Shown: positions 8,919-33,129 of the stretch, in pieces | How positions within the stretch are numbered: the stretch's first letter is position 1 | How the letters are laid out: every line of letters starts with the position of its first letter | Assembly (NCBI GenBank): GCA_004173475.1 | Contig: SEBU01000001.1 | Coordinates: 682,001 to 746,000, forward strand | Origin: Gammaproteobacteria bacterium | GTDB taxonomy: Bacteria; Pseudomonadota; Gammaproteobacteria; Pseudomonadales; Cellvibrionaceae | Length of the DNA stretch: 64,000 nucleotides | Direction: 5' to 3' | Position numbers and translations under genes: made by a program | Notes under the pieces: model-generated | What the model saw: only the letters and a program-made list of their open reading frames with translations | Databases searched by the model: none | Told to the model about the DNA's origin: nothing

Positions 8919-8990
8919 ACCACACACTACTACTTCACACACTCACACACTTCACAACACACACGGGGCTTCACACACTTTCACACACAC
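8919..8990. repeat. CA-rich simple repeat with TTCACACAC units
   Basis: About 70 bases made of CACACA tracts broken by TTCACACAC units (three near-copies) and one CGGGG interruption. It lies in the 3-prime untranslated part of the metalloprotease transcript, between its stop and terminator. No open frame of quality uses it. It may be prone to slippage. Confidence 0.7.
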
Positions 8991-13454: not shown

Positions 13455-13480
13455 CTAAAACTTTATAAAGGACACGATTG

Positions 13481-14281
13481 ATGAATAGCGTTAAAAGATT
13501 GAAATGGTGCGGATTTCTACTGCTTTTACTTCCATTTACCGCAAATGCTCAGTCCAACTATTCAATTGGCGCCGGCGATGAAATAAAGATGACCGTATAC
13601 GGTCAGCCTGAATTAAGTATCGACGCCCAAGTCAATAACGACGGTACCGTTGAAATCCCGTTGCTGGGTAGTCTAAAAATTTCCGGCCGTTCAAGTGGCG
13701 ATGCCGCCAAACTCATTGCTGATCGCTATCAGAACGGCAATGTGCTAAAAAATCCTCAAGTTAATGTTCTCATCACGAAATATCGTAGCCACGTAGTTTC
13801 AATACTTGGCAAAGTCGCACGCCCTGGAAAACTCGTTCTGGAAGGGTCCACCTCCCTGACCCAAGCCATTGCGTGGGCAGGCGGTGTATTAGACGCAGGT
13901 AGTGAACGCATTATCCTCGTACGTACCGACGCAAATGGTAAGCAGGAGCGTCGCGAATATGACCTGCAAAAAGTGCTCGGTAAAGAAGTCGATAACAGCC
14001 CAATTGTTTGGCTGCAGGATGGCGATACTCTTTATGTTCCAAACGCGGGCCGTTTTTACGTCAGCGGAGAAGTTCGTACGCCTGGTATGTACCCTCTTGA
14101 TCGTCCTTTAAATGTGATGCAAGCCGTTGGTGTTGGTGGAGGGATTACCACACGTGCCAGTGAAAGGTCAGTAAAATTGTTCCGCAAACAAACGGACGGA
14201 AGCGTGAAGGAGCTGCGTGCTAAGCCGGAAGATACGGTACAAGACGGCGATATTTTAGTTGTTCAGGAAAGTCTTTTTTAA
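13481..14281 (+). CDS. epsE: Exopolysaccharide export protein, Wza/EpsE family
   Basis: Periplasmic/outer-membrane polysaccharide export protein. The 266-residue product has a signal peptide (about residues 1-24, ending NAQS) without a lipobox, then the Poly_export domain (SIGAGDEIKMTVYGQPELSI, VNNDGTVEIPLLGSLKISG, NPQVNVLITKYRS) and two SLBB repeats (VSILGKVARPGKLVLEG, FYVSGEVRTPGMYPLDRP). It fits the EpsE type rather than lipoprotein GumB. AAAGGA lies 8 nt before the ATG at 13481; an in-frame TTG just upstream (13478) is too close. It is the first gene of a tight ten-gene operon and works with EpsF at the next position. Confidence 0.88.
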   Translation: MNSVKRLKWCGFLLLLLPFTANAQSNYSIGAGDEIKMTVYGQPELSIDAQVNNDGTVEIPLLGSLKISGRSSGDAAKLIADRYQNGNVLKNPQVNVLITKYRSHVVSILGKVARPGKLVLEGSTSLTQAIAWAGGVLDAGSERIILVRTDANGKQERREYDLQKVLGKEVDNSPIVWLQDGDTLYVPNAGRFYVSGEVRTPGMYPLDRPLNVMQAVGVGGGITTRASERSVKLFRKQTDGSVKELRAKPEDTVQDGDILVVQESLF

Positions 14282-14295
14282 AGGGTTAAGCAAAC

Positions 14296-15687
14296 ATGAC
14301 TATTGATAATTTAATTCTCGTCTTTATCGCACGCTGGCGCACCATCGCGATCTCGACCGCAGTTGCTCTGGTATTCGCAGCTATAGTGACTATGTTGTTA
14401 CCCAAAACTTACACAGCTACTACTGACTTGATTATAGATAACAAAGATCAAGATCCTATTAGTGGCCAGGTCCAACCCACCCGAGTGCTCGCAAGTTATA
14501 TAGGCACCCAGGCGGTCATCATCCAAAGCCCTAATGTAGCTAAAAAGGTAATTGAAGAGTTAAAGTTAACCTCAAACGCTGTATTGGCTGAGCAGTTACA
14601 TTTTAAAGATGACTTGAAAAGCCGCCAAAGCGCGTTAATGGGGTTCCTCGATCGCGGATTAAGTGTTTCTCCCGCACAAAATAGCAGCGTTTTTAGTATC
14701 TCGTTCAGCGCGCGGGATCCCGAAATTGCGGCCCAGCTTGCCAATGCTTTTGCACAGACGTATATGAAAACCAACCTTGAGTTGCGTATTGAACCTGCCA
14801 AGCAAATTAACCAATGGTATGACGAGCAGTTAGCTTCTCTTCGTGAAACCCTTATTGAGAAGCAGAATGCCCTGGCAACTTATCAAGAGAAGCACGACAT
14901 TATTGCCAGTACTGATAGACTCGACCTGGAATCAAATAAGCTGGCGGAACTCTCCTCCATGCTAATTGCCGCCCAAGGTGAGCGACTAAATAACACATCG
15001 CGTAATGACCAGATTTTAAGTGGAATTCGTGGTGGCATTCCTGCCCAGGCAATGGAAAACCCGCAAGTGCAGCGTCTAAGCGGGGAGCTTGCACAAGCCC
15101 AAGTTAGATTGAATGACACAGCCACTCGCGTTGGTGAAAACCATCCACAATACCGTCAAGCGCTCAGCGATGTTGAAGGTATAAAGGCGCAGCTCCAACA
15201 AGCCGTTCGATCTGTTAGCGGCAGCCTAAAATCTTCACTCGAATTATCTTTATCGCGTGAAGAGCAACTCACTGCTGAGCTTGCTATCCAGAAAGAACGC
15301 GTATTGCAACTTAGCCGTACACGTAACGAGCTGAATTTGTTAAAGCAAGAAGTTGATAACGCTCAAGCAACATACGATCAAGCTCTTGGACGTTCGACTA
15401 AAACCAAGCTAGAAAGCCGAATCGCGCAGACGGATATTGCACTTCTTAATGCCGCCGAAGTTCCGAGAAGACCATCCTCCCCTAAAACTCCGATGAATTT
15501 AATGCTGGCCCTTATCGCGGGTCTTTTATTTGGTTCTGCTTTTGCACTCATACAAGAGTGGATGGATAGACGTGTGCGCAGCTCGGTAGATTTGGAACAA
15601 GGATTAGGAATCCCGGTTCTAGCCTACTTGCCTGCGGATATGGGCGTAAGACCTTCCCGTGGCCTTTTAAAGAAAGGAACGATGTGA
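14296..15687 (+). CDS. epsF: Polysaccharide chain-length determinant, EpsF/GumC-type co-polymerase
   Basis: Inner-membrane co-polymerase that sets chain length and bridges to the export channel. The 463-residue protein has an N-terminal transmembrane segment (about residues 16-36), the Wzz domain with a LLPKTYTATTDLIIDNKDQD strand, a long periplasmic coiled-coil region (about 150-380), the proline-rich exit PRRPSSPKTPMN and a second transmembrane segment (LMLALIAGLLFGSAFALI, about 405-425). The short cytosolic tail has no kinase domain; that part is the next gene. The stop overlaps the next start (TGATG), indicating coupling. Confidence 0.88.
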   Translation: MTIDNLILVFIARWRTIAISTAVALVFAAIVTMLLPKTYTATTDLIIDNKDQDPISGQVQPTRVLASYIGTQAVIIQSPNVAKKVIEELKLTSNAVLAEQLHFKDDLKSRQSALMGFLDRGLSVSPAQNSSVFSISFSARDPEIAAQLANAFAQTYMKTNLELRIEPAKQINQWYDEQLASLRETLIEKQNALATYQEKHDIIASTDRLDLESNKLAELSSMLIAAQGERLNNTSRNDQILSGIRGGIPAQAMENPQVQRLSGELAQAQVRLNDTATRVGENHPQYRQALSDVEGIKAQLQQAVRSVSGSLKSSLELSLSREEQLTAELAIQKERVLQLSRTRNELNLLKQEVDNAQATYDQALGRSTKTKLESRIAQTDIALLNAAEVPRRPSSPKTPMNLMLALIAGLLFGSAFALIQEWMDRRVRSSVDLEQGLGIPVLAYLPADMGVRPSRGLLKKGTM

Positions 15688-16565
15688 TGAATGATTTAGC
15701 CAAAACAATTCCCTTACAACCCCAAACTGTGTCAAAACCTATGAACAAGATGGGTAGGATGTTAGTCGAGAGCGGCAAACTCAGCCTCGAAGATTTAAAA
15801 GCAATTATTACTTACCAGGAGCGCCATGGTTTACGCTTCGGTGACGCCGCCCAGCAATTAGGTCTGCTCTCCAACGAAGATATAAATCTGGCGCTCGCAG
15901 ATCAGTTCTCCTATACCAGGACACCAGATCGCACTAGCAAATTAGACAAGCGTTTACTCGCTGCCTTTCAACCAGACAGCGTCCATGCAGAAGCTTTGCG
16001 CAGCTTACGCAGCGAACTTTTATTACGCTACTTTAACCAAGGTGATCATTTGAGCCTTGCACTTATAGGTGCGGAAGATGCGGAAGGTATTGCGCTTACG
16101 GCGGCTAATCTTGCCGTGGTTTTCTCACAATTAGGATTGCGCACGCTTTTGATTGATAGCAACCTACGCGCGCCACAATTACACAGTCTATTCGGCTTGA
16201 ATGAACGCAATCTCGGACTCTCGGATTTATTGGCTGGCCGAGCTTTCACTGCGCCGATCGAGATTCCTGAGCTTCGTTCGTTGTGGGTCATTCCTGCAGG
16301 AACTTTGGCTCCAAACCCACAAGAATTGCTCACAGGTAAGCTTTTCTCGCAACAAATGCGTGAATTGGCGGCCGGTTTTGACGTGACGCTGATTTGCACT
16401 CCACCTATGCGGGAAAATCGCGATGCACAGTTAGTCGCTGCGGTTATTGGCGCTGCACTTTTGGTCGTTCAAGAACATAACTCCCGTTATAAAGATCTCA
16501 ATAGTATTTGTTCTGGTCTACGCGAGCTCGGAGTGCGCCTTTTGGGGGCCGCGCTGAAGCAATAG
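15687..16565 (+). CDS. epsG: Chain-length-determinant tyrosine-kinase-like protein, EpsG family, degenerate P-loop
   Basis: Cytosolic partner of the co-polymerase. The 292-residue protein starts with an MshEN-like segment (MGRMLVESGKLSLEDLKAII, about 22-41), then a BY-kinase/MinD-like fold with HAEALRSLRSELLLRY, AANLAVVFSQLGLRTLLIDS and LRAPQLHSLFG (Walker A-prime region about 154-161). The Walker A site (about 128-138) reads IGAEDAEGIALTAAN, with no Lys-Ser/Thr pair, and the usual C-terminal tyrosine cluster is missing (tail ends LLGAALKQ). It may therefore be a structural regulator rather than an active kinase. ATG 15687 follows AAAGGA by 8 nt and overlaps the epsF stop. Confidence 0.82.
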   Translation: MNDLAKTIPLQPQTVSKPMNKMGRMLVESGKLSLEDLKAIITYQERHGLRFGDAAQQLGLLSNEDINLALADQFSYTRTPDRTSKLDKRLLAAFQPDSVHAEALRSLRSELLLRYFNQGDHLSLALIGAEDAEGIALTAANLAVVFSQLGLRTLLIDSNLRAPQLHSLFGLNERNLGLSDLLAGRAFTAPIEIPELRSLWVIPAGTLAPNPQELLTGKLFSQQMRELAAGFDVTLICTPPMRENRDAQLVAAVIGAALLVVQEHNSRYKDLNSICSGLRELGVRLLGAALKQ

Positions 16566-16599
16566 GTATGGTAGAGAATTTGATCGGAAGGACTAGGGA

Positions 16600-17898
16600 A
16601 TGCTAGGTACCTTATTTCAAAACCGGTTGGGTACGAGCAATCACCTGCCGGCAAACGGCAGATTAATGCGTAACAATGAATCATTTTTCACCGAGCAGGG
16701 AACGGTGATCGGAATTATCATTGCGAGCATTTCCTATCAAGCCATACTTTGCATGCTCAATACGCAAACCCACATGGTTTCACGCGCAATAGTCGGGTTG
16801 AGCGAGGGCCTAATCGTCCTCGCATGTCTCCCGCTTCTTGCTCGACGCATGCTTCCTGGTGTTCTGATTTTACTGTTGTTGTCCGCCGCCCTGCTCACAA
16901 TCTCTTCGATAATTAGTGGCGAATTGATGTTAAAGGCATTTCGTGACCTTCTAATTCCGCTCTGCTTTTTTTGGGCTGGTTATAATGTTGGGCGCGCCGA
17001 TTTGGCAGAGCGGGCGTTGAAAGTCGCTATCGCGGTAATAATTTCTTTCGGCCTATTCGAATTCTTTTTCGTCGACAAATTTACCAATCTCTTCGACATA
17101 TTTGGATATTACGTTAGCACCGGCAGCCTCGTACCTATAACGGATTACGTTCGTGACAGTAAACTGCAAATGAATGGTATTCGTCCGGAAGGTATAGGCC
17201 GTACTTTATTTCCTGGACTCTTGGGTTCTCATCGCGTTTCTTCCGTATTTTTGGAACCCATATCCATGGGTAACTTTGCGACCATGTGCGCAGCATGGGG
17301 ATTAAGCAAAGACACAAAACAGATACGCCAAATGCTTTGGTTTTTAGGCGCAGCCTTCGTGATGATGGTGCTCTCAGACTCACGCTTTGCCCTAATGTCA
17401 GTTAGCTTAATGATTTTGGCGCGGTTAACCTTGAAGGGAACTACGGTCAATCTTGTTGTTTTAGCCCCGTTTGTAGCAACCATCATGCTGCTAATTATGG
17501 GAATGGACGCGACTGGTAGGGGGGCAGATAGTTTTGGGGGACGTCTTTCATTTTCAGGATTCACGCTGCTTCACTTTGATTTGCCTCTACTTTTCGGTTT
17601 ATCTGGAATGCAGAATTTCGGCGATCAAGGCTATGCCTACGTCCTTTCCAGTTTTGGTTTACCAGTTGCCCTTTTATTTTGGTTTAGCCTTTGGCTGGTG
17701 AAAATGCCGGATGATCAGAGCCTACGTTTCCGCGCTTTCATCTCAATTTATTTGTCGCTAATTTTATGCATCAGCGGCAACTCAGCGTTCGCTTTTAAAA
17801 CTTCCGCGGTTGTATGGTTTCTGATAGGCAGCTGCCTAAAAAATCCTGCACCAAATGGTCAAAGAAACATCAGTTCTGGAGAACAGAAAAATGCCTAG
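16600..17898 (+). CDS. Polysaccharide polymerase-like membrane protein (GumE/Wzy type)
   Basis: A 432-residue integral membrane protein with about ten to twelve hydrophobic segments and a long central loop (about 170-215, including FGYYVSTGSLVPITDYVRDS and GIGRTLFPGLLGSHRVSSVF) as in Wzy/GumE polymerases, which join lipid-linked repeat units at the periplasmic face. Family members are poorly conserved, so the call rests on topology, length and position between the export genes and the first glycosyltransferase. A GGAAGGA precedes the ATG at 16600. The last 8 nt overlap the gumH start. Confidence 0.7.
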   Translation: MLGTLFQNRLGTSNHLPANGRLMRNNESFFTEQGTVIGIIIASISYQAILCMLNTQTHMVSRAIVGLSEGLIVLACLPLLARRMLPGVLILLLLSAALLTISSIISGELMLKAFRDLLIPLCFFWAGYNVGRADLAERALKVAIAVIISFGLFEFFFVDKFTNLFDIFGYYVSTGSLVPITDYVRDSKLQMNGIRPEGIGRTLFPGLLGSHRVSSVFLEPISMGNFATMCAAWGLSKDTKQIRQMLWFLGAAFVMMVLSDSRFALMSVSLMILARLTLKGTTVNLVVLAPFVATIMLLIMGMDATGRGADSFGGRLSFSGFTLLHFDLPLLFGLSGMQNFGDQGYAYVLSSFGLPVALLFWFSLWLVKMPDDQSLRFRAFISIYLSLILCISGNSAFAFKTSAVVWFLIGSCLKNPAPNGQRNISSGEQKNA

Positions 17899-19051
17899 AG
17901 TTACCCATGTGGTTAGGCAATACCTACCTTCAATTGGGGGAATGGAAGAAGTCGTCCGAAATATTGCACTGCATCAATTGAACACTGGGCACAAAGGCAT
18001 TCGCATTATTACGCTTAACCGTTTATTTCGTACCGCCAAGCAATCCGTGTCGGAAAATATTCTTCCTTCTCGTGAATTTATTGATGGCGTCGAAGTAGTA
18101 CGTCTTCCTTACTACGGCTCCAGCCGTTATCCAATTTGCCCTGGAATACTGCGTGAATTAGCTGACGCTGAAGTAATCCACGTGCATGGGGTAGATTTTT
18201 TCTATGATTTTCTCGCCGCAACAAAATGGATTCACAAGCGCCCACTTGTTTTGTCAACGCATGGTGGTTTCTTTCATACGGCGTTTGCATCAACAGCTAA
18301 AAATGTTTTTTTTAAAACCGTTACCAAACTTTCATCTAAAGCTTATGCAAAAGTTATAGCGACCAGTGCTAACGACGGTCAACTTTTTAGCAAAATTATG
18401 AGCGAACCTAAATTAAAAGTGATTGAAAATGGAGTTGACGTCACTAAATTTGCCAATCGGGGTGCAAAACAATTAAAACCAACGATAATTTATTTTGGCC
18501 GATGGTCAATTAATAAAGGATTACTCGAATCGCTGGATATGTTTGCACACTTGTACAAACAAGATAGCAGTTGGCGCTTCATTATCGCTGGACGCGAATA
18601 TGATCACAGCCTGGACGAACTGAAGTTACGCGCAAGCGAACTCGGTCTAGAACAATCTGTCGAACTTGTGCCCAATCCTTCAGATGAAATGTTGCGTGAG
18701 CTCATTGGACAATCAAGTTATTTTTTATGTTTGTCGCGTCACGAAGGTTTTGGCATAGCTCCAATTGAAGCCATGAGTGCTGGGTTAATACCTGTTCTAA
18801 GTGATATACCGCCATTTCGCACGCTATTGGAAAAGTCTGGACTGGGTGTGATTGTTGCTGATCGCAATAACACTCAACCGGCAGTTGGAAAATTGATAGA
18901 GTTGCACAAAGAGGGTGAAAATGCCTTCGAAGAACGGCGTGCGGCAGCTATTGCGTTCGCTCAACAATATGCGTGGCAACGAGTCGCTGATAATTACTTG
19001 GATGTCTACGCGGAGCTCGTTAAAGATCTATCTTTGGGAGAAGCAGTATGA
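17891..19051 (+). CDS. gumH: Alpha-1,3-mannosyltransferase GumH-like (GT4)
   Basis: GT-B glycosyltransferase that in xanthan synthesis adds the internal mannose to the cellobiose-lipid acceptor. The 386-residue product matches remembered Xanthomonas GumH along most of its length: VVRQYLPSIGGMEEVV near the start, YYGSSRYPICP, HVHGVDFFYDFLAATK, STHGGFFHTAFAS, VIENGVDVTKF, YFGRWSINKGL and the GT4 signature SRHEGFGIAPIEAMSAGL. I start at ATG 17891, preceded by TGGAG; the longer frame to 17855 lacks a ribosome site. Its stop overlaps the GH5 start (ATGA). Confidence 0.88.
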   Translation: MPRVTHVVRQYLPSIGGMEEVVRNIALHQLNTGHKGIRIITLNRLFRTAKQSVSENILPSREFIDGVEVVRLPYYGSSRYPICPGILRELADAEVIHVHGVDFFYDFLAATKWIHKRPLVLSTHGGFFHTAFASTAKNVFFKTVTKLSSKAYAKVIATSANDGQLFSKIMSEPKLKVIENGVDVTKFANRGAKQLKPTIIYFGRWSINKGLLESLDMFAHLYKQDSSWRFIIAGREYDHSLDELKLRASELGLEQSVELVPNPSDEMLRELIGQSSYFLCLSRHEGFGIAPIEAMSAGLIPVLSDIPPFRTLLEKSGLGVIVADRNNTQPAVGKLIELHKEGENAFEERRAAAIAFAQQYAWQRVADNYLDVYAELVKDLSLGEAV

Positions 19052-20103
19052 AAACCCTAAGTTTGATATTTTTCACTTTATTTCTTGCAAGTATGCAAGC
19101 CCAGGCAGGCTGTCTGGATCTACCACGATTAACCGGCGTAAATGTTGCTGGTGCAGAATCTAATTCAGGTGTGTTGCCGGGTGAGTTTGGTAAAAATTAT
19201 ATTTACCCAACCACAGCAGAATTAAATTTTCTCGCATCACAAAACGTTACCGTCATCCGTTTGCCAATCCGCTGGGAAAGAGTACAAACCGCGCTTAATG
19301 GTCCGCTGAACCCGCTTGAAATAAGACGTCTCCAAGAAACAATACACACTGCAAATAATTTAGGCATGTGTGTAATGATTGATATACATAACTACGCAAA
19401 ATATTTTGGTGTGGCTTTGAATGGTAACGCCGCATTGCAGAATGGTTTCGTCGATGTGTGGTTGAAACTCGCTGCTGAATTCTCAAATGCTGACACGACA
19501 ATTCTGGATTTAATGAATGAGCCAAACTATATTCCGCTCGCAGAATGGGGTCCTCTTGCAAAACGTACCGTCTCCGAATTACGAAAGGCTAAAGCAAAAA
19601 ATATCATCGTGGTATCGGGAGGAAAGTGGAGCGGTATTCACGATTGGTTTTCGTTGAGCGGAGAAGTTTCTAACGCTACTGCCTTTGCAGATCTTAGAGA
19701 CCCGCTGAATCGCACTATCATTCAAGTTCACCAATACGTTGATGAATATTATTCCGGCACAACTACTTTATGTAAATCGCCAGACAAGTTTGATGCTATG
19801 TTTTCAAAAATTACTCAATGGGCCAAGGATAACCAGCAACAACTTTTCCTCGGCGAATTTGGTATGCCTGCAACTACAGAATGCCTCGCGACCCTCGAAA
19901 AAATGTTGAGTTTAATGGGTGACCCGGTATGGCGTGGTTTTACTTACTGGGCGGTGGGACGCTGGTGGAACAATTATCCATTTGCATTGAACTTAACCAG
20001 CACGGCACCAGTGGCTCCTCAATGGGCAATATTGAAAAAATATTTTCAGAAACCGCTTGTTCGAAAAAGCGCGCCTAAACCACCCGTCGTGGACCCTATA
20101 TAG
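19048..20103 (+). CDS. Secreted glycoside hydrolase family 5 protein in the exopolysaccharide operon
   Basis: A 351-residue exported (beta/alpha)8 enzyme: signal peptide 1-20, TGVNVAGAES at the N-terminus of the barrel, RLPIRWERVQ, MCVMIDIHNYAKYFG, acid/base Glu158 in LMNEPN, and nucleophile Glu270 in LFLGEFGMPA. This is a cellulase-like GH5 layout with no binding module. Its ATG overlaps the gumH stop, so its synthesis is tied to the sugar-transfer enzymes. Since the predicted polymer has a beta-1,4-glucan backbone, a likely role is trimming or releasing the exopolysaccharide in the periplasm or outside; this is inference. A proline-rich tail (KPPVVDP) ends the protein. Confidence 0.85.
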   Translation: MKTLSLIFFTLFLASMQAQAGCLDLPRLTGVNVAGAESNSGVLPGEFGKNYIYPTTAELNFLASQNVTVIRLPIRWERVQTALNGPLNPLEIRRLQETIHTANNLGMCVMIDIHNYAKYFGVALNGNAALQNGFVDVWLKLAAEFSNADTTILDLMNEPNYIPLAEWGPLAKRTVSELRKAKAKNIIVVSGGKWSGIHDWFSLSGEVSNATAFADLRDPLNRTIIQVHQYVDEYYSGTTTLCKSPDKFDAMFSKITQWAKDNQQQLFLGEFGMPATTECLATLEKMLSLMGDPVWRGFTYWAVGRWWNNYPFALNLTSTAPVAPQWAILKKYFQKPLVRKSAPKPPVVDPI

Positions 20104-20183
20104 CTTTTATGGCTACATCTAGCTGTGCCTTACAGGCACAGCATTAAAGTAACTTCAGAGATTCTGTGTGAACGGAGATATTT

Positions 20184-21335
20184 ATGACAACTTCAATTGA
20201 AAGTGATAAGCCGCTGGGCAACGAGAATTTTTTAGTTCTCTCTGCCCATGATTTTCGCTCACCGCGCAAAGCAAATTTGCATTTCATCACATCTGAATTA
20301 GCAAAGCGCGGAAAAACGCGCTTTTTTTCATTGCGTTATAGCTTGCTGTCAAAGCGCACAGCGGATCCGCGCTTATCACTGGACGCAGAAGCAAATAAAA
20401 TTGGTACCTATCAGGGTGTAGAATGTTATTTGTGGAAGACCTTGATTCATCCTTTCAATACACGTCGTAAATGGCTTCGTCCTTTAGAAAGTTTAATGTA
20501 CACCTGGTACAGTCGTGGTCAAAACCCAGTACTTCGCCAATGGATTAGCGAAGCGACGGTCATTGTTTTGGAAAGCGGTATTGCACCTATTTTTTTCGAT
20601 TTAATCAAATCTTTAAATCCCAACGCCAAAATTCTTTACCGCGCATCAGACGCACTGGATACCATAAATGTTGCCGACTATATTCATGAAACTTTCGCGC
20701 GAGTTGCCGGACAATTGCATACGATAGCTCTACCTTCAAAGGCTATGGCAGATGCAATACCGAGCAAGCATAACCTTGCGTTCGTCCCCCAAGGTATAGA
20801 TCACTCGGTTACTGAAAAAGCAGATCCATCACCTTACGGTCCTGGTGTGCACGCAGTGTCCGTTGGTTCGATGCTGTTCGATGCAAGTTTTTTTGTCATA
20901 GCATCAAAACGTTTTCCTGAAATTACATTTCACGTTATTGGCTCAGGCCAAGGCGCAGACCCTGGTTATGGCGACAATGTAAAAGTTTACGGGGAAATGC
21001 CATTTGCGCAAACATTACGCTACATAAAACATGCGCAACTGGGCATAGCGCCCTACTCAAGCAACAACTTACCTGCGTACTTGCGTGACACTTCTATGAA
21101 GCTTATTCAATACGCATTTTTCGAAATACCCGCCATTTGTCCTTTCTTTATTGCAGCGGATTACCCAAACCGTTTCGGATATGAAATCGGTAATGAAGAA
21201 ACTATTGCCAACGCTATTACGCGTGCACTAATTCCGTCATCAAATACCGCACGTCAACAAGTATTAAGTTGGGGTGAAGTTACTGAACGTTTACTAACGC
21301 CAAAACTATATCGCGATACAGAGATCAGTTTATGA
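20184..21335 (+). CDS. gumK: Glucuronosyltransferase GumK-like (GT70)
   Basis: Adds beta-1,2-glucuronic acid to the mannose of the lipid-linked trisaccharide. The 383-residue product follows remembered Xanthomonas GumK closely: LSAHDFRSPRKANLHFIT at residues 18-35, RFFSLRYSLLSKR, LWKTLIHPFNTRRKWLRP, VIVLESGIAPIFFDLIK, LYRASDALDTINVADYI, VSVGSMLFDASFFVIASKRF, HVIGSGQGADPGYGDNVKVY, GEMPFAQTLRYIKHAQLGIA. CGGAG precedes the ATG at 20184. An 80-nt gap separates it from GH5; its stop overlaps the next gene (ATGA). This is one of the best-matched genes in the window. Confidence 0.92.
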   Translation: MTTSIESDKPLGNENFLVLSAHDFRSPRKANLHFITSELAKRGKTRFFSLRYSLLSKRTADPRLSLDAEANKIGTYQGVECYLWKTLIHPFNTRRKWLRPLESLMYTWYSRGQNPVLRQWISEATVIVLESGIAPIFFDLIKSLNPNAKILYRASDALDTINVADYIHETFARVAGQLHTIALPSKAMADAIPSKHNLAFVPQGIDHSVTEKADPSPYGPGVHAVSVGSMLFDASFFVIASKRFPEITFHVIGSGQGADPGYGDNVKVYGEMPFAQTLRYIKHAQLGIAPYSSNNLPAYLRDTSMKLIQYAFFEIPAICPFFIAADYPNRFGYEIGNEETIANAITRALIPSSNTARQQVLSWGEVTERLLTPKLYRDTEISL

Positions 21336-22111
21336 GCCAGGCAATAAGCATTGAATATCCAAGCGTGGATCTTGGCGGATTTCCCGTACAAAGTTTGACC
21401 GCACCTATTTTGGGCCAGAAACTTGAACGAGCAATTGACGAAAAAAAACAAATTTCACTTTTTTTTGCAAACACAAATTTCGTTGTTAAATGCCAGGACA
21501 TACGTGAGTCAATTTTAAAATCCAATTGTGTTATCACGAACGATGGCGTCGGATTAGATATAGCATCACTGCTTTTGTACAAGAAAAAGTTTCCAGAAAA
21601 CTTGTGTGGTACAGATTTTGTCCCTCAGTTCCTCATTGATATTAAACAAAAGGCACGCGTTTTTTTATTAGGCGCGAAACCAGGTATCGCAGACCGCGCC
21701 GCAAAAAATATGCGCGAACATTTGGGCATTACCGTTGTGGGAGCTCGCGATGGTTATTCGCAAATGCAAGACATTGATAAAGTCATTAACGACATTAATA
21801 CAAGCGAAGCAAATATTGTTATAGTGGCTATGGGAAATCCATTGCAAGAAAAATGGATACTGGATCATCAGCATTCACTCAATGCAAACATTTTTATGGG
21901 TGTCGGTGCGTTAATCGATTTTCTGGCCGGTGATAAGCCCCGTGCGCCCGTAGTGTTTCGTAAACTCAGACTCGAATGGCTTTATCGCTTATCTTTAGAG
22001 CCAACAAGATTATTGCGTCGATACACTTTGGATATAGGAATTTTTTTAGCGTTATGCCTTAATGCCGAACGAAACAAATCCAAATGGGTGGAAAAACATA
22101 ACGAACAGTAG
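21332..22111 (+). CDS. gumM: Glycosyltransferase GumM-like, WecG/TagA/CpsF family (GT26)
   Basis: In xanthan synthesis GumM forms the beta-1,4-glucosyl-glucose (cellobiose) lipid. The 259-residue protein has the GT26 pattern: FFANTNFVVKCQ, TNDGVGLDIASLLLYKKKF near residue 70, FLLGAKPGIADRAAKNM, IVIVAMGNPLQEKWILDH near residue 165 and MGVGALIDFLAGDKPRAP, followed by the C-terminal helix-rich tail with LRLEWLYRLSLEP that is typical of membrane-associated members. It overlaps gumK by 4 nt. Confidence 0.88.
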   Translation: MSQAISIEYPSVDLGGFPVQSLTAPILGQKLERAIDEKKQISLFFANTNFVVKCQDIRESILKSNCVITNDGVGLDIASLLLYKKKFPENLCGTDFVPQFLIDIKQKARVFLLGAKPGIADRAAKNMREHLGITVVGARDGYSQMQDIDKVINDINTSEANIVIVAMGNPLQEKWILDHQHSLNANIFMGVGALIDFLAGDKPRAPVVFRKLRLEWLYRLSLEPTRLLRRYTLDIGIFLALCLNAERNKSKWVEKHNEQ

Positions 22112-22151
22112 TGTGAAGTTTTATGCCCTTGAACTAATGATGAGATAATGA

Positions 22152-23222
22152 ATGCGAATTTTAGCCTCACCCGCTTTTAGTAATGAAAGGGTTAACCCTT
22201 ACAACGCGCAACTCTACCGAAGAATTGAAGCTAGCGGTCATGTCGTATTTGAATATTCGCACAAACGTGTTTTAAAAGAAAAGTTCGATATAATTCATGT
22301 TCATTGGCCAGATGGTTACATCGATCAAAAAAATTGGTTCAAAGCTATCCAACGTGCATTTTTGTTAACGCTTATGATGAGTATCGCCAAAATTAAAGGC
22401 GCACGATTGGTTTGGACTGCACACAACCTAAAACCCCACGATGCTTTTCATCCGAAATTTTCGCAATTTTTCCTGGGGCAGTTTCTAAAACTTTGTAACG
22501 GTTTAATTTTTCTCACCAATGACGGGAAAAATAGTTTTTTAGAGCGATACCCGGCTCAGCAGGAAATCCATCAAGCTGTTATTCCACATGGCCACTACCG
22601 CGATTCCTACCCTAATCCCGTAAATCAAAATGAGGCAAAAACTTCTCTGGGTTTGCCCATAGATAAAAAAATATTACTTTTTATGGGAATGATAAAACCC
22701 TATAAAAACTGTGATGCCTTAATCAAAGAATTTGGAGAAGCAAAACTCGAAAATTATATTTTGGTAATTGCGGGAAAACCGGAAACGCCTAAATACAAAC
22801 AGCAATTAGAGTTACTTGCGAAAGATCAAGATAATATTCATTTGCGCCTGGAATTTATTCCAGATGATCAGCTTCATATTTACATGAGTGCTGCTGATAC
22901 TGTAATACTACCCTACAAATCCATCTTAAACTCCGGCGCACTGTTATTGGCGCTTTCATTTAACAAACCGGTTATTGCCCCACACATGGGTGCCTTTGTA
23001 GAACTACAAAACGAATTAGGTTCGCAATGGATTTATAGCTATGCAAGCGAATTAAATGATGCTGATTTAGGCTTTATGCTTCAACAACTTGATCTACTTT
23101 CAAGACCCGCCTCCTGCCCTCTCGACAATTATGATTGGCGCAATCTCGCTGAATTAACTGTTAACTTCTACGAAGAAATTCTACTTAGCGAATCGCCCTC
23201 TCAGCACAAAGTATCGTTATGA
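22152..23222 (+). CDS. gumI: Beta-mannosyltransferase GumI-like
   Basis: GumI (GT94) adds the terminal beta-1,4-mannose to the glucuronic acid of the xanthan unit. The 356-residue GT-B protein has NPYNAQLYRRIE near residue 17, IIHVHWPDGYI, VWTAHNLKPHDAF, VIPHGHYRDSYPNP (GumI has the matching HGHYRDW), FMGMIKPYKNCDALI, and TVILPYKSILNSGALLLALS with NKPVIAP. Similarity to GumI is clear but lower than that of the gumH and gumK products, so the exact sugar is uncertain. The stop overlaps the flippase start (ATGA). Confidence 0.75.
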   Translation: MRILASPAFSNERVNPYNAQLYRRIEASGHVVFEYSHKRVLKEKFDIIHVHWPDGYIDQKNWFKAIQRAFLLTLMMSIAKIKGARLVWTAHNLKPHDAFHPKFSQFFLGQFLKLCNGLIFLTNDGKNSFLERYPAQQEIHQAVIPHGHYRDSYPNPVNQNEAKTSLGLPIDKKILLFMGMIKPYKNCDALIKEFGEAKLENYILVIAGKPETPKYKQQLELLAKDQDNIHLRLEFIPDDQLHIYMSAADTVILPYKSILNSGALLLALSFNKPVIAPHMGAFVELQNELGSQWIYSYASELNDADLGFMLQQLDLLSRPASCPLDNYDWRNLAELTVNFYEEILLSESPSQHKVSL

Positions 23223-24709
23223 ATATAAAAGCACAACTGGGGAAGAGCACAGCGTGGATGAGCTTAGCCGCGAGCGGCAATAGCGCCATAAGCTTTGTTA
23301 TTTTTATCGTTTTATCGCGATTGCTTAGCCCAGCAGAAATTGGATTGGTAGCATTTGCATTAATTATTGTTGAGCTAGGAAAAATAATAGTTAATGGTGG
23401 TTTTGCACAAGCCGTAGTGCAAAAGGCAGACTGGGATAACAAGTACGCATCAACATGCTTTTATTTAAATTTATTTTTCTCACTGGTGGTAGCACTTATA
23501 GTTCTCGGCATAGTTTCGCCTCTCGTGATTCGTTACTATCAACCCGAGGCCGGCACTATCTTAAATGTTTTTTCCATAATGTTTTTTTTAGAGGGCACCA
23601 AAGCCGTTCATGAAGGTAAATTAAAACGGGAATTTGCCTTTAAAATCATCGCAATTCGAACGGTTCTTGCGGGATTAATTCCTGGCGCAGTCGGCATCTT
23701 TCTCGCCTACCGAGGTTACGGTGTATGGGCGCTTGTTGCACAACAAATGTTAAATCAGGTGGTCGTGACCATTTTGACTCTGAGTACCGCCAAATGGATG
23801 CCTACGCTCGCCTTTTCAAAAGAGCATGCTCAACAAATTTTAAATTTTTCAATACCATTAATGCTTGCGCAATTTATTAGTAACGCAAGCTCAAAAATTT
23901 TTGAGCTCATGATAGGCATAATGATCGGCCCTGCAGCTCTCGGGCTGTATCGCGTTGGAGGGCGCGCTTTGTACATTTTACAAGATGTGTTGCTTAAGCC
24001 CTTTGAGCACACCGCGCTCTCCGCACTCGCGCGCGTCGACGGAACAGCCAATCAGGGTAGAGCTACCGTTAGAATGATTCGCATGAGCGCATTTTTAATA
24101 TTTCCTTTATTTTTTGGCGCAGCTGCCGTAGCGCCTGAATTTATAACCTTTGCCTTCGGTGTCAAATGGGAAGAAAGCGGCATAATAATGACGATCCTTT
24201 CTTTTGGTATCGCCCCTTACGTTTTGGGCCTTCACATCAACGCCGCGCTGACCGCCAGCGGCAACTCAGGCATGGTAATGACCATAGCGATAGTCTCCTT
24301 CATTATAAATTGCGTACTGGGTTTTATTTTTGTTCCTTTTGGTTTAATAGTTGCCGCATGGACCTTCTCGATCCGCGGTTTCATAATTAATTCGATGGGA
24401 ATTTTCTGGTTTAAAAAAGCTTTCAATGTTCCTATCGTGGATATACCAAAAGCCGTGGCACCGAGCTTCATATCATCGCTGCTTATGTTTTTAGCGGTTT
24501 ATTTTGCGACGCCAATATTAGCGGACCGTATTCCCACTCTTTTAAACATTATTGTACTGTGTGCATTAGGGGGAGTTATTTATACATTCCTTATGCTGGT
24601 AATTTTTAGATCCGCCACCAGCTTTGTTTTTAAGGAGGCCGAACAAATTGCACCGCAAAAATTTAAGCCAATTCTTATTTCGCTTAAAAAAGTGATGCGA
24701 TTAAATTAA
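23219..24709 (+). CDS. Polysaccharide flippase, Wzx/GumJ type
   Basis: A 496-residue inner-membrane protein with about 12-14 hydrophobic segments, the MATE/MVF-like oligosaccharidyl-lipid flippase layout: N-terminal STAWMSLAASGNSAISFVIF, LSRLLSPAEIGLVAFALI, FFLEGTKAVHEGKLKREF and a repeated second half. It probably moves the completed lipid-linked unit across the membrane, the GumJ position in the xanthan pathway. Last gene of the plus-strand operon, coupled to gumI by a 4-nt overlap. Confidence 0.85.
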   Translation: MNIKAQLGKSTAWMSLAASGNSAISFVIFIVLSRLLSPAEIGLVAFALIIVELGKIIVNGGFAQAVVQKADWDNKYASTCFYLNLFFSLVVALIVLGIVSPLVIRYYQPEAGTILNVFSIMFFLEGTKAVHEGKLKREFAFKIIAIRTVLAGLIPGAVGIFLAYRGYGVWALVAQQMLNQVVVTILTLSTAKWMPTLAFSKEHAQQILNFSIPLMLAQFISNASSKIFELMIGIMIGPAALGLYRVGGRALYILQDVLLKPFEHTALSALARVDGTANQGRATVRMIRMSAFLIFPLFFGAAAVAPEFITFAFGVKWEESGIIMTILSFGIAPYVLGLHINAALTASGNSGMVMTIAIVSFIINCVLGFIFVPFGLIVAAWTFSIRGFIINSMGIFWFKKAFNVPIVDIPKAVAPSFISSLLMFLAVYFATPILADRIPTLLNIIVLCALGGVIYTFLMLVIFRSATSFVFKEAEQIAPQKFKPILISLKKVMRLN

Positions 24710-24946
24710 TCGCCAATTCAAATATTGCATGGATGCATTCACCTACAAAACGTCATTAGTTTCAAAAATTGCTGCCGGGGAGTTATGCTTTATCTGACCT
24801 TAAAACTTATTTAGGCCGTTTCGAAAATGAGTAGCATTGGATCTCTGAACGCAAAAAAGAAGCATAAGAGAAGCGAGGCACTAAATAACATATCTAATGC
24901 TCAGGTGCTTTAGCTTTAAATGAGTTAAAAGAAATAAGAGATTGAG

Positions 24947-24977
24947 ATCGTTGAGAAGCAATTAATAGATCAACGAT
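24947..24977. terminator. Weak hairpin between convergent operons
   Basis: ATCGTTGA (24947-24954) pairs with TCAACGAT (24970-24977), which spans the gumL stop. There is no U-tract on either side, so it may terminate weakly or stabilise the 3-prime ends. The rest of the 260-nt gap between the flippase and gumL shows nothing else. Confidence 0.3.
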
Positions 24978-25797
24978 TTAAACGTTTGCCCCACAATGCC
25001 AAGGGAAATGCTTTTATCAGAGCTGTTGGATTGTAACGAATCCCAGGTGCACCTCCCATCTCCAAACCTTCTTCAATTGAAGTAGCAAACTTAAACTCGG
25101 ACTCAGTGCGTCCAGTTCCTAAATAATAGTCCTTGTATTTAAATACATCTTCAATTTCTGAAAAACGCACATATCTTGCCGGAATGCCGAAGGCTTCCGC
25201 AACAATCAAACCGTGTAACGAACTTGCTAATACCAGTCTGGATTTAAGGATACTTTCGACAACATTATTCCAGCCCCATAAAGGTGAAACGACATTTTTT
25301 TCTTGAGGGACCAATGCTAAATCGTGCAGATTGGGAATTACAACGTAACCGCTTTCCGCAGTAGGTTTAAATCGGTTTTTAAATATATGTGGTATTAGTA
25401 ACGCGGGGTCACCGAAAATATCGGGCGCATCAATTTTACGAGCTCTCATAAATTCTGCGGTCAATGGGCCGCGAACTGCATGAACTTTTAAACCCTTCGC
25501 TTTAAACTCCTTCTCATCTATTTTCCCGTTCCAACCGGTGCCCCAAATGTGGTCACCTGTCTTGGCAAAATGCAAAACTGAACCTATGGTAAATAGCCGC
25601 TCCTGTCTATCTACTTCATCATCTAAACTCAAGCCATGTAGAGCGAGCATTTGTCGCGAGATTATTTCAGCCAATCTATCGCCAAAATTTACACCACCGT
25701 TGGCTGGAGACCAATAAATTAACTCAATATGAGGATATGGTAACCGTCCAGTTGATAAAGATTTTCGATCCGCGAACGAAAAGATATTTTTAATCAT
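24970..25797 (-). CDS. gumL: Ketal pyruvyltransferase GumL-like (polysaccharide pyruvyl transferase)
   Basis: Adds a pyruvate ketal from phosphoenolpyruvate to the terminal sugar. The 275-residue protein matches GumL: YWSPANGGVNFGDRLAEII near residue 29, TIGSVLHFAKTGDHIWGTGW, VHAVRGPLTAEFMRARKI, DIFGDPALLIPHIF, VLASSLHGLIVAEAFGIPAR and FKYKDYYLGTGRTE. It is the last gene of the minus-strand operon gumD-epsL-gumL. A pyruvylated polymer would carry negative charge in addition to glucuronate. Confidence 0.9.
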   Translation of the reverse strand: MIKNIFSFADRKSLSTGRLPYPHIELIYWSPANGGVNFGDRLAEIISRQMLALHGLSLDDEVDRQERLFTIGSVLHFAKTGDHIWGTGWNGKIDEKEFKAKGLKVHAVRGPLTAEFMRARKIDAPDIFGDPALLIPHIFKNRFKPTAESGYVVIPNLHDLALVPQEKNVVSPLWGWNNVVESILKSRLVLASSLHGLIVAEAFGIPARYVRFSEIEDVFKYKDYYLGTGRTESEFKFATSIEEGLEMGGAPGIRYNPTALIKAFPLALWGKRLNR

Positions 25798-25923
25798 ATC
25801 TTCAACCCCTCAACTCACGTGAACATGATCGGCCTTGAAATGCAGAGAAGGCTCATTGAAATTATTTTTATTACTGGAACACTTAGTATTCCAGTATGCC
25901 ACATCATACAGTGCTGATTTACA

Positions 25924-27096
25924 CTAAAAACGAAAGGTCAGACCAAGGGAAGCTTGCGATGTTTCATATTCTCGTTCGAGCACGGGTGATTCATTTTTAC
26001 GCCATGACGTATCGAGCTTAAAATTCAACGAATCACTCATTGTGTAGGTTAGTACAAAAGGAGAAATGTTTACTTGCGATTCTGTGCGAGGAAATTCTTC
26101 TCCGAGATTTTTATAGTCACGTTTTATTTTTTCAACTCGACTTGAGATGCTCCACTTCGGGGAGAAACTCCAGGAAAAATTGATAAATCCGGCTTGAATT
26201 GTAGAAGGTAAATCAATCGTTTCACCTAAAGCAGGCTTTTTGTATGAATAACCTGTACGCCACTGAATTTTGGGTGTGGCGTCCCAACTAAAATCTACAG
26301 TCGCATAGTCTCCGGTTGAATCATTAAGGACACCATCACGCTTGAATCGCGTAAAACTGATAGTTGAAGTCGTTTTGGAAGACATCTTCCAAACATTTTC
26401 TATTTCCAATTGATCAAAATCGAAGTTGTAATCACGCTCAGGGTCGAGTACTGATAAATCGTCATATTGACGATCACCGCCTCTGTAACGCACAGTCAAT
26501 GTTGAAGCGGACGGAGTTTTGTACGTAAGACCAACAAACCCTTCCCTATCTTCAAAATTAAATTTGGTAAAAACATCATTGGAATGTTTTTGATTGGACT
26601 GGCTCGCCCCTAGCTGGAAAGAGAAACGATTATCGCGACCTTTTGTTACCATAAACTTCGTAGTATCGCGCTCAACTACGTCACTGGCATCGGCTCCTAC
26701 TTCCCATCTATCAACTAAATAGGCGTCACGCGACCATTCTAGATTAGATGTAAAATCGCCTGCCCAGGCTCCATTCCACCGCGCAAGACCATTCTGAACT
26801 GTTTCATCGAATTGTTCATATTCCGCGTGTTGATAGGATCGCACAGCCCAACGCGCACTGAGTTGCTGGCGACTTACATATGTCGCCAGTGCAACTCCTG
26901 CACTAAGAATGGTAGTTTGTTCCGAAAGCTCTTGATCATCGGGTTTTCGAAAAAAATTGCTGTCCCATAATTGAGTAGCTCCCACAGCGCCGCTGATTAG
27001 TTTTTCTTGTTCTGCCGCAATAATTTCACCACTTTGCAACACAAAAAATAACGTTATTCCAGCTAACTGAGTATGGCTTTTTTTAATATATCGCAT
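25924..27096 (-). CDS. epsL: Outer-membrane beta-barrel protein of EpsL type
   Basis: A 390-residue exported protein with a signal peptide (about 1-27) and a body of alternating amphipathic strands rich in aromatic residues, ending in LGLTFRF, the terminal-Phe signal of outer-membrane barrels. Motifs such as WDSNFFRKPDD near the N-terminus and long runs like STISFTRFKRDG fit the EpsL family of exopolysaccharide operons, thought to help the polymer leave the cell. AGGATT precedes the ATG at 27096. It lies 15 nt after gumD on the same strand. No classical Gum locus has this gene. Confidence 0.75.
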   Translation of the reverse strand: MRYIKKSHTQLAGITLFFVLQSGEIIAAEQEKLISGAVGATQLWDSNFFRKPDDQELSEQTTILSAGVALATYVSRQQLSARWAVRSYQHAEYEQFDETVQNGLARWNGAWAGDFTSNLEWSRDAYLVDRWEVGADASDVVERDTTKFMVTKGRDNRFSFQLGASQSNQKHSNDVFTKFNFEDREGFVGLTYKTPSASTLTVRYRGGDRQYDDLSVLDPERDYNFDFDQLEIENVWKMSSKTTSTISFTRFKRDGVLNDSTGDYATVDFSWDATPKIQWRTGYSYKKPALGETIDLPSTIQAGFINFSWSFSPKWSISSRVEKIKRDYKNLGEEFPRTESQVNISPFVLTYTMSDSLNFKLDTSWRKNESPVLEREYETSQASLGLTFRF

Positions 27097-27111
27097 TTTA
27101 ATCCTGCAATC

Positions 27112-28569
27112 TTAGTAGGCTTGTTGCCCTACAAAACCTCTGAACAAAGTTCCCCACAGGATTTTCAAATCCAGCATCAATGACCAGTTATGAATATATT
27201 CAAGGTCATAGGTGATACGGCCAGACATTTTATCCAAAGTCTCAGTTTCACCGCGGAAACCATTGATCTGAGCGAGCCCAGTAATCCCAGGCTTAACCTT
27301 ATGACGCAACATGTAACCTTTAATTTGGCCGCGATAAAATTCGTTGTGCGCAACCGCATGAGGGCGTGGCCCTACCAATGACATGCTTCCACTTAATACA
27401 TTGAACAACTGTGGCAGTTCGTCTAAAGACGTACGACGTAAAAATGCACCCAATGGAGTTACTCGCATATCGCCCTGCTTCGCTTGAACAACATTGTCTC
27501 CATCTTCACATACGCTCATCGAGCGGAATTTCCAGACTTTAATACGCTCACCACCCATTCCATAACGGGTTTGTTTAAAAAATACGGTGCCGGGAGAAGT
27601 TACTTTTACTGCTATCGCAATAATTAACATAGGAATAGCGAGCATCAATAACATCAATGAAGAAATAATGATGTCTTCGAGACGTTTCGCCCAACCATTA
27701 TCAACCAAAGGTGAGTCGTATATGCTTAATGCAGGAATACCTTTCAAACAGGTCAACCGTGAATGCATTAAATCAAAGCTGAATACGTCAGGAATTACGT
27801 AAGGGGTAACCGTGGTATCTGCCAAACGATTAATCAGCTCATGCATGCGCAACTCAGCGCGCATTGGGAGTGCCACATATACAATATCGATTTTGCCACT
27901 GTGCGCGTCTTTATAAAGTTGTTCAAGGCCGCCCTTAATATCAATGTCTTGGGCAATTAAACGACGGCTAGCATCATCTTTCTCTATACGGTCGTCATAG
28001 AACCCTACTACGCGATAACCCAACCAAGGCATGCCCGTCATTGAATTAACCAGGCGCAGACCTAACTCATTAGCACCCACTATAGCGACTCTGCGCGGCT
28101 CTGCGGGATTAGAACGTAATTTAGCTAAAAGTACGCGGCGCCCCCAATGAAGCCCAACCATAACAATGGGTGTTTCGATGGCCCATAAAGCAAGAATATT
28201 TATGTCTAATTCGCTGCCTTTATAAAAGAATAGCAGCGCCAAACTGATGATAAGCGCTGTGCCCGACCAGGCAGTAACTAGACGCGCACCCAAACCATAC
28301 GTCGAGTGCCCACGCCATAAATAATAAACTTCATTTCCCTCGGCAAAAAAGCCGAAAATAATTACAGCGGAAATTGCGCAGCTCGTATATGCGTTTATCC
28401 ATTCGACGTTTGCCACGTGCAAAATTGCCCACAGCATAAACACGATGATTAAACTATCAATCGCACGAAACAGTGCTAAGATTTTTGAATGATGTAAACG
28501 AATCCCCGGTGGCTGCGCGTTTATAGACACCGGGGACATGGGGCCACTAGGCATATCTGGACTGTTCAT
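27112..28569 (-). CDS. gumD: Undecaprenyl-phosphate glucose phosphotransferase GumD/WcaJ type
   Basis: Starts the repeat unit by moving glucose 1-phosphate from UDP-glucose to undecaprenyl phosphate. The 485-residue protein has four to five N-terminal transmembrane segments, a Rossmann-like middle domain (RRVAIVGANELGLRLVNSM), another membrane segment (about 295-320) and the C-terminal sugar transferase domain with PGTVFFKQTRYGMGGERI, VWKFRSMSV, RRTSLDELPQLFNVLSG and SMSLVGPRPHAVAHNE, PGITGLAQINGFRGET. I start at ATG 28569 (GGAG upstream); the GTG at 28581 overlaps that ribosome site. It lies in the minus-strand operon with epsL and gumL. Confidence 0.92.
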   Translation of the reverse strand: MNSPDMPSGPMSPVSINAQPPGIRLHHSKILALFRAIDSLIIVFMLWAILHVANVEWINAYTSCAISAVIIFGFFAEGNEVYYLWRGHSTYGLGARLVTAWSGTALIISLALLFFYKGSELDINILALWAIETPIVMVGLHWGRRVLLAKLRSNPAEPRRVAIVGANELGLRLVNSMTGMPWLGYRVVGFYDDRIEKDDASRRLIAQDIDIKGGLEQLYKDAHSGKIDIVYVALPMRAELRMHELINRLADTTVTPYVIPDVFSFDLMHSRLTCLKGIPALSIYDSPLVDNGWAKRLEDIIISSLMLLMLAIPMLIIAIAVKVTSPGTVFFKQTRYGMGGERIKVWKFRSMSVCEDGDNVVQAKQGDMRVTPLGAFLRRTSLDELPQLFNVLSGSMSLVGPRPHAVAHNEFYRGQIKGYMLRHKVKPGITGLAQINGFRGETETLDKMSGRITYDLEYIHNWSLMLDLKILWGTLFRGFVGQQAY

Positions 28570-33052: not shown

Positions 33053-33090
33053 CATTATTTGCTAGGGATAACCTTCTCATGTGCTGCGTT

Positions 33091-33110
33091 GGTTGCGGCA
33101 CATCGCAACC
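33091..33110 (+). promoter_or_regulatory. Hairpin before the cytochrome c fusion gene
   Basis: GGTTGCG (33091-33097), loop GCACAT, CGCAACC (33104-33110): a perfect 7-bp stem 19 nt before the ATG at 33130, just before the GGGAA ribosome site. It may modulate translation or mark an mRNA processing site in this bicistronic unit. Confidence 0.35.
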
Positions 33111-33129
33111 TTTAGCGGGAACCAAAGCC

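Follow-up and report, generated by a model that had tools for sequence, protein, structure and literature searches.

In a 64-kb stretch of a Cellvibrio genome (contig C1:682001-746000; hereafter the window), positions 13478-28581 hold a 13-gene Wzx/Wzy locus that is predicted to make and export a xanthan-type exopolysaccharide. The best reading of its gene content is a repeat of glucose, glucose, mannose, glucuronic acid and mannose (Glc-Glc-Man-GlcA-Man) carrying pyruvate, which would leave the cell through an outer-membrane polysaccharide export (OPX) protein paired with a β-barrel. We put the probability of the whole scheme, including the roles proposed below for EpsG, EpsL and a glycoside hydrolase of family 5 (GH5), at roughly 0.77. 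It builds on protein families, homology to gum enzymes, operon overlaps, catalytic residues, loss of a P-loop and conservation in three lineages, all of which are read from sequence. Ten genes, from epsE to the flippase gene, lie on the + strand, and three (pyruvyltransferase, EpsL and GumD) lie on the − strand; all 13 open reading frames (ORFs) are open. The outermost ORFs start at 13478 (TTG) and 28581 (GTG), and the limits given in the initial annotation, 13481 and 28569, are correct as the ATGs just inside them. Four-base GTGA/ATGA overlaps occur at four + strand junctions (EpsF/EpsG, GumH/GH5, GumK/GumM and GumI/Wzx).

Reference gum clusters were drawn from the Xanthomonadaceae, a family picked via a XanA protein marker (82-83% identity; two genomes of one family). 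Of 198 genomes of this family 23 were GumK-positive, and 11 loci were taken from them. L061 and L062 were taken as Xanthomonas gum clusters because identity to the PDB GumK sequence reaches 94% in the GumK of L061 and 92% in that of L062; L062 carries gumF and gumG, with acyltransferase domains. L068 was excluded from the multi-locus comparison because its match to GumK is weak (32% identity in 74 aa), leaving ten Xanthomonadaceae stretches of about 20 kb each.

Ten gum-type proteins (B, C, D, E, H, I, J, K, L and M) have homologues in the window locus. The GumK protein (20184-21335, +), a glucuronosyltransferase of glycosyltransferase (GT) family 70, contains a GumK_N domain (Pfam, E=1e-65) and matches two PDB sequences, both named GumK (best E=3.8e-139, residues 15-380). 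It is 56% identical to L062 GumK and 55-58% identical to the ten Xanthomonadaceae GumKs, and the equivalent of Asp157, the catalytic residue of GumK (PMC12768416), is kept in 34/34 aligned rows. At residue 272, which the same paper writes as Asp, the PDB-derived row and 34/34 others have Glu. Relative to L062, identity is 50% over 385 aa (E=2e-136) for the GumH-like GT4 α-mannosyltransferase (17855-19051, +), 42% over 238 aa for the GumM-like GT26 β-1,4-glucosyltransferase (21332-22111, +; PF03808; ATGA overlap with gumK), 40% over 253 aa for the GumL-like pyruvyltransferase (24970-25797, −; PF04230) and 35% over 448 aa for the GumD/WcaJ-like undecaprenyl-phosphate glucose-1-phosphate transferase (27112-28581, −), which exceeds the curated cut-off of TIGR03023 (514.3 versus 410.75 bits). 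The EX7E motif named for GumH (PMC13104830) is present as EGFGIAPIE; an alternative ATG twelve codons downstream would reduce the overlap of the GumH-like gene with the polymerase gene. More remote are the GumI-like, GT94-like terminal β-mannosyltransferase (22152-23222, +; 27% over 347 aa, E=1.5e-35), the GumJ-like Wzx-type flippase (23219-24709, +; PF13440; 26% over 313 aa; ATGA overlap with the GumI-like gene) and the GumE-like Wzy-type polymerase (16600-17898, +; 26% over 396 aa, E=5e-15), which has no Pfam or NCBIfam match. Generic glycosyltransferase similarity was rejected as an explanation: the best NCBIfam match of the GumH-like protein reaches 70.5 bits (cut-off 575), against E=2e-136 to GumH itself. 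Hidden Markov model and BLAST comparisons therefore bear out the likeness to GumH, GumK, GumM, GumI, GumL and GumD claimed in the initial annotation, as well as the absence of gumF and gumG: a tblastn search confined to the 64-kb window, and not extended to the remainder of the genome, gave no homologue (best E 0.16).

With the roles of the Gum enzymes taken from PMC4443731, assembly would begin with the transfer of glucose 1-phosphate onto undecaprenyl phosphate by GumD. The GumM-like enzyme would then add the second glucose, the GumH-like enzyme an α-mannose and GumK the glucuronic acid. A terminal β-mannose would follow, placed by the GumI-like enzyme and pyruvylated by the GumL-like enzyme. 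After flipping of the pentasaccharide by Wzx, Wzy would join the repeats into a polymer with a cellulose-like backbone under the control of the co-polymerase EpsF, and the chain would exit through EpsE, a short OPX protein, and the β-barrel EpsL. Donors, linkages and the pyruvate target are inferred here from homology. The repeat proposed in the initial annotation can be retained in graded form: assembly of Glc-Glc-Man-GlcA by GumD, GumM, GumH and GumK is well supported by these matches, and a terminal mannose with pyruvate (GumI-like, 27%; GumL-like, 40%) is reasonably supported. Genes for ugd, mannose-1-phosphate guanylyltransferase/phosphomannose isomerase (GMP/PMI), galU and a phosphomannomutase lie adjacent to one another on contig C58 of the same genome, and would supply UDP-Glc, UDP-GlcA and GDP-Man. 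The UDP-glucose-dehydrogenase-type ugd, GMP/PMI and galU products score over their cut-offs, and the CpsG-family phosphomannomutase falls below (734.5 of 801). The nearest PDB entries of the latter are 5bmn, which we take to be XanA of X. citri, and its kin. The gum-like cluster of Oxalicibacterium contains GMP/PMI in 3/3 loci (one a stub at a contig end) and ugd in 2/3.

The four export proteins have EpsE, EpsF, EpsG and EpsL as their top NCBIfam models. The EpsE-type OPX protein (13478-14281, +; 267 aa; signal peptide by eye) matches PF02563 (Poly_export) and PF10531, is made up of Poly_export and two SLBB stretches with nothing further, and scores 227.6 bits with TIGR03028 (cut-off 262.65). 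The EpsF-type chain-length determinant (14296-15687, +; Wzz, GNVR), a polysaccharide co-polymerase (PCP) without a kinase domain, reaches 416.7 bits with TIGR03017 (cut-off 422.75), EpsG 260.9 bits with TIGR03029 (cut-off 313.8) and the EpsL-like outer-membrane protein (25924-27096, −; no Pfam match) 109.8 bits with TIGR03014 (cut-off 275). EpsE and EpsF score about twice as high with the EpsE and EpsF models as do GumB and GumC of L064 (96.3 and 199.8 bits), the only Xanthomonadaceae pair scored. The corresponding scores are 222.2 and 411.2 bits in Marinobacter L034, which passes the cut-off for none of the four proteins, and 332.9 and 558.7 bits in Oxalicibacterium L036, which passes for EpsE, EpsF and EpsG. 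EpsE is 31% identical to L064 GumB over 167 aa and EpsF 27% identical to GumC over 432 aa; because these two are distant GumB/GumC relatives, the real additions are EpsG and EpsL. The Eps-type export of the initial annotation thus holds as the best-scoring assignment, and must be softened in that all four proteins remain below equivalog level and two of them have Gum relatives. A link to an exosortase system was considered and rejected. EpsD, XrtB and EpsI are absent from the locus. This genome has a single exosortase match, about 700 kb distant, and the 20 kb around that match hold no relatives of EpsE, EpsF or EpsG. D1D2D2 OPX proteins, whose domain composition EpsE shares, are described as pairing with an outer-membrane β-barrel (PMC9601211), and EpsL is a candidate, by analogy, for the barrel partner of EpsE.

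The EpsG-type protein (15684-16565, +), a partner resembling bacterial tyrosine kinases (BY-kinases), is a predicted pseudokinase with a fold assigned by homology. All 20 rows aligned for Cellvibrio, Marinobacter and Oxalicibacterium (L038 lacks the N-terminal part) have lost the P-loop GK[ST] and show DxN at Walker A′. In the PDB alignment, CapB (3bfv) has GAGKS at the lost site, and the EpsG of Mitsuaria, the sole comparator, keeps DGKS and DxD. The window protein also ends without a Tyr-rich tail. Residues 23-74 form a predicted MshE-like domain for binding cyclic di-GMP (c-di-GMP), which scores above the cut-off of 38 bits for NF053729 in 4/4 EpsG proteins scanned (window, 39.2; L034, 43.0; L036, 43.0; L024, 40.8); the N-terminal stretch also matches PilF (6f8l, E=3.8e-5). 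BY pseudokinases are reported to act as scaffolds of the co-polymerase (PMC12004946). We suggest that EpsG would likewise be a scaffold for EpsF, and that export is probably tuned by c-di-GMP binding at the N-terminal domain, not by tyrosine phosphorylation.

Between the GumH-like gene and gumK lies a gene for a single-domain GH5 endo-β-1,4-glucanase (19048-20103, +; PF00150, E=1.3e-41; signal peptide by eye). The GumH-like stop codon and the GH5 start codon share the four bases ATGA, which couples the GH5 gene to the glycosyltransferase genes. No further Pfam domain, and no binding module, was found in the protein up to E 0.01. The nearest PDB chain is a "Cellulase" (5hpc, E=1e-70); chains 4W7U and 5HPC presumably come from Xanthomonas citri. 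The two catalytic glutamate motifs, NEP and LGE (LGEFG/LGETG), are present in 24/24 rows. The gene sits between GumH and GumK in 16/16 Cellvibrio and 2/2 Marinobacter loci and inside the GumH-to-GumK interval in 3/3 Oxalicibacterium loci; in L039, L040 (Acidisoma) and L045, three loci that we labelled acetic-acid-bacteria-like, it is beside GumK or one gene off. No GH5 match occurs in the ten Xanthomonadaceae stretches. An endoglucanase gene in gum-like clusters is already known from Kozakia, where plant wall degradation was suggested as its role (PMC5050591), and from the acetan set of Komagataeibacter (PMC7961339). We suggest that the enzyme, in the periplasm or outside the cell, would cut the backbone of the polymer, most likely to trim or release chains or to clear under-substituted ones.

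The genes predicted to act at the distal end of the side chain vary among species. The multi-locus comparison included 16 Cellvibrio loci (the window and 15 others), two of Marinobacter (including L034) and three of Oxalicibacterium (including L036), beside the acetic-acid-bacteria-like and Xanthomonadaceae loci. It omitted L001-L012, L041-L044, L046, L047, L052-L057 and the plasmid loci L079-L081, together with L027-L029 and L031-L033, which are duplicate copies of included loci. A search with two peptide patterns of Cellvibrio GumK gave at least 15 named loci, with no Xanthomonas among those listed. A GumI-like gene is present in 10/16 Cellvibrio loci and a GumL-like gene in 8/16, the latter only together with the former (8/10 versus 0/6; Fisher p=0.007, uncorrected for kinship), a pattern that favours a pyruvylated terminal mannose. 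The 15 other Cellvibrio loci also contain an extra GT4 (five loci), a GT25 (five) or a second type of pyruvyltransferase (two). L033, the locus of C. mixtus subsp. mixtus J3-8, carries a GT25 and neither a GumI-like nor a GumL-like gene. L016 has none of these five distal genes, and its source should therefore make a bare tetrasaccharide repeat, as far as gene content predicts. We know of no natural xanthan of this kind; tetrasaccharide repeats are, to our knowledge, confined to gumI-inactivated strains. Such a repeat is made by gumI-inactivated Xanthomonas (PMC4443731). The roughly 21 kb covered in Marinobacter gave no match for a GumI-, GumL- or flippase-like gene, and the stretch covered in Oxalicibacterium gave none for GumD or EpsL. 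Beside the GumL-like pyruvyltransferase of Oxalicibacterium stands a gene for a protein of about 335 aa (L036 6677-7684; L037 6683-7687), which is at most 22% identical to the GumI-like protein; the L036 copy has no Pfam match.

The core of the locus is conserved across the genus and beyond. EpsE-F-G, Wzy, GumH, GH5, GumK and GumM are kept in 16/16 Cellvibrio loci (contig-end losses in L026 and L030 aside), in 2/2 Marinobacter loci and, for the parts covered, in Oxalicibacterium. Identity to the window proteins ranges genus-wide from 44 to 93% (EpsL, 29-58%). GumK_N was detected in 16/21 Cellvibrio genomes (two of the five negative genomes are less than 80% complete) and in 0/16 further genomes of the family and order. 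Across the class it occurs in 2/369 genomes and across the phylum in 4/398, the present genome being counted in both and one of the four being below the cut-off. A xanthan-like polymer in this plant-cell-wall degrader had been called an unusual find; within Cellvibrio the locus is a genus trait and not the oddity of a single strain. In trees of 34 rows, Cellvibrio forms one group apart from the Xanthomonadaceae with strong support for GumK (100/99) and the GumH-like protein (99/99). In the GumM tree the Cellvibrio rows need two changes (one in 46% of bootstrap trees), and two of the three trees place L045 on a long branch. Recent transfer from Xanthomonas was rejected on the GumK and GumH-like trees, and because these set Cellvibrio apart so firmly the gum-type locus seems to be of long standing in the genus. 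GumK relatives on plasmids are 23-39% identical in 15/15 records. One of them, on a Sphingomonas paucimobilis plasmid (L080 9001-10059; 37%), lies in an exopolysaccharide cluster flanked by transposases. Another genome of the class, 2.0 Mb in size, has a remote relative (L047 8616-9764; 28%), near which the only other match is a weak one to a nucleotide-sugar dehydrogenase.

Several observations weigh against a complete xanthan pathway with Eps-type export. The GumI-like (27%), GumE-like and GumJ-like (both 26%) proteins are remote, and such distant enzymes can use other donors or form other linkages. Acetan shares the first four sugars of xanthan and then diverges (PMC7961339), and in Oxalicibacterium a GumL-like gene is present in 3/3 loci where the GumI-like match is 22% at best. 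All of the Eps assignments are below equivalog cut-offs, including the family match on which the barrel call for EpsL depends. One alternative is an acetan-type product, in which a Glc-Glc-Man-GlcA core would receive another sugar, for example glucose, from the 22152-23222 enzyme, and that sugar would be pyruvylated. The same core is common to the acetic-acid-bacteria-like clusters, which likewise carry an endoglucanase or other glycoside hydrolase (GH) gene, and some Cellvibrio loci have an extra GT4 or GT25 or lack the GumI-like gene. We nevertheless consider an acetan-type product unlikely, as the stretches of L039, L040 and L045 contain no GumI- or GumL-like match and the window, like Xanthomonas, has both. 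A silent or decayed locus that yields no polymer is highly improbable in view of the 13 open ORFs and their genus-wide conservation.

The proposed roles of GH5 and EpsG invite alternatives of their own. The closest PDB relatives of the GH5 protein are ordinary cellulases, which do not fix its substrate, and it could be a plant-cellulose-degrading enzyme that came to lie in the operon by chance and is unconnected with the polymer; the role proposed for the Kozakia endoglucanase and the plant-wall-degrading habit of Cellvibrio (PMC5816542) fit this. Its protein distances do correlate with those of GumK (r=0.84 for 19 loci and 0.73 for 15 Cellvibrio loci; 0/2000 shuffles as high in either), a behaviour common to all four other operon genes tested, and the correlation therefore speaks for joint descent and not for function. 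Set against a chance neighbour are the position of the gene near GumH/GumK in all the groups named above, the coupled start and the lack of a binding module, and we regard an unrelated cellulase as rather doubtful, though a serious contender. EpsG, for its part, might still work as a kinase through an atypical nucleotide site, in which case tyrosine phosphorylation would continue to run export. It passes the autokinase model TIGR01007 by half a bit (108.6 bits, cut-off 108.05), and the proteins of Marinobacter (118.2) and Oxalicibacterium (130.3) pass as well, that of L024 (103.7) failing. The motifs lost in every row, the missing tail and the intact GKS and DxD of the one XrtB-linked EpsG compared, that of Mitsuaria, make an active kinase very unlikely. 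The xanthan-type scheme with a scaffolding EpsG and a backbone-cutting GH5 remains our preferred reading. A wider proposal is more tentative: Cellvibrio, Marinobacter and Oxalicibacterium may form a separate xanthan-type lineage, with c-di-GMP-gated export via a dead kinase, an operon endoglucanase that edits the backbone, and swaps of distal enzymes that vary the side chain, down to a natural tetrasaccharide-repeat xanthan as in the source of L016.

Among the genes around the locus, a 2-oxoglutarate-Fe(II) oxygenase (PF13640; 29228-30082, −) adjoins GumD and may modify the polymer or its carrier. Relatives of it stand beside gum-like clusters in Cellvibrio L027/L028, Xanthomonadaceae L066 (47%) and Acidisoma L040 (35-37%) and are absent from most compared loci. 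A reprolysin-type metallopeptidase with serine-rich stretches is encoded at 8990-10336 (−), and two genes at 32267-36393 (+) have 3-keto-disaccharide hydrolase matches; the second of these encodes 1104 aa and also matches cytochrome c, with DUF7133 below its cut-off. Relative to the initial annotation, the GH5, GumE-like and GumJ-like genes, the P-loop loss and c-di-GMP-binding domain of EpsG, and the species-variable distal genes are additions.

Xanthan ranks among the major industrial thickeners. Another lineage, outside the Xanthomonadaceae, that has every sugar-adding enzyme, lacks gumF/gumG in its locus, shows natural side-chain variants and uses a different export unit would offer parts for altering xanthan structure. 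It also makes it possible to test what purpose an endoglucanase serves in gum-like clusters, and how a co-polymerase operates when its partner kinase is probably unable to phosphorylate. Among the papers listed in a literature search, judged by titles and abstract openings and with little subscription literature, none reports a xanthan-like gene set from any of Cellvibrio, Marinobacter and Oxalicibacterium.

Compared with the Xanthomonas gumB-gumM cluster, the window locus has homologues of GumD, M, H, K, I, L, E and J and the same predicted order of sugars and pyruvate. It differs in lacking gumF and gumG, which are both present in 10/10 Xanthomonadaceae loci, in gene order (10 + and 3 − genes and not one colinear gumB-to-gumM operon), in an OPX protein and PCP nearer to EpsE and EpsF, and in the added EpsG, EpsL and GH5, none of which has a match in the 10/10 Xanthomonadaceae stretches. 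With the acetan and acetan-like clusters of Komagataeibacter, Gluconacetobacter and Kozakia it shares the GumD/M/H/K core, a polymerase homologue and an endoglucanase or GH gene (PMC5050591, PMC7961339), whereas the stretches covered of L039, L040 and L045 gave no match to the GumI/GumL-like pair and show lower identities (GumK 46-49%, GumM 28-31%), and the Wzc of Gluconacetobacter is described with intact Walker motifs and a Tyr cluster (PMC8620434). The EpsE-F-G order recurs, at 34-37% homology, on a plasmid of Mitsuaria sp. 7 within an EpsD-EpsE-EpsF-EpsG-XrtB-EpsI module. We take this module to be of the methanolan type. There EpsD, XrtB and EpsI, missing from the window locus, flank epsEFG; the window EpsG, unlike that of Mitsuaria, has lost its P-loop, and the window glycosyltransferases are gum-type.

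The nearest parallels for the export proteins come from Myxococcus xanthus. Its EpsY/EpsX composite OPX/β-barrel translocon likewise combines a short OPX protein, without an outer-membrane domain, with a gene nearby for a predicted outer-membrane protein; the main text of that source does not name EpsE, EpsL or GumB (PMC9601211). The BY pseudokinases EcpK of M. xanthus and HfsB of Caulobacter resemble the window EpsG in lacking the Walker A lysine and a Tyr-rich tail and in standing beside a kinase-less PCP-2; unlike these proteins, in whose main-text account neither MshEN nor c-di-GMP appears (PMC12004946), the window EpsG has a predicted N-terminal c-di-GMP-binding domain. The predicted product is thus of a known kind, that of xanthan and acetan, and what would be new, in that we found no description of it, is the EpsEFGL-type export, the P-loop-less EpsG with its c-di-GMP domain and the naturally variable distal side chain.

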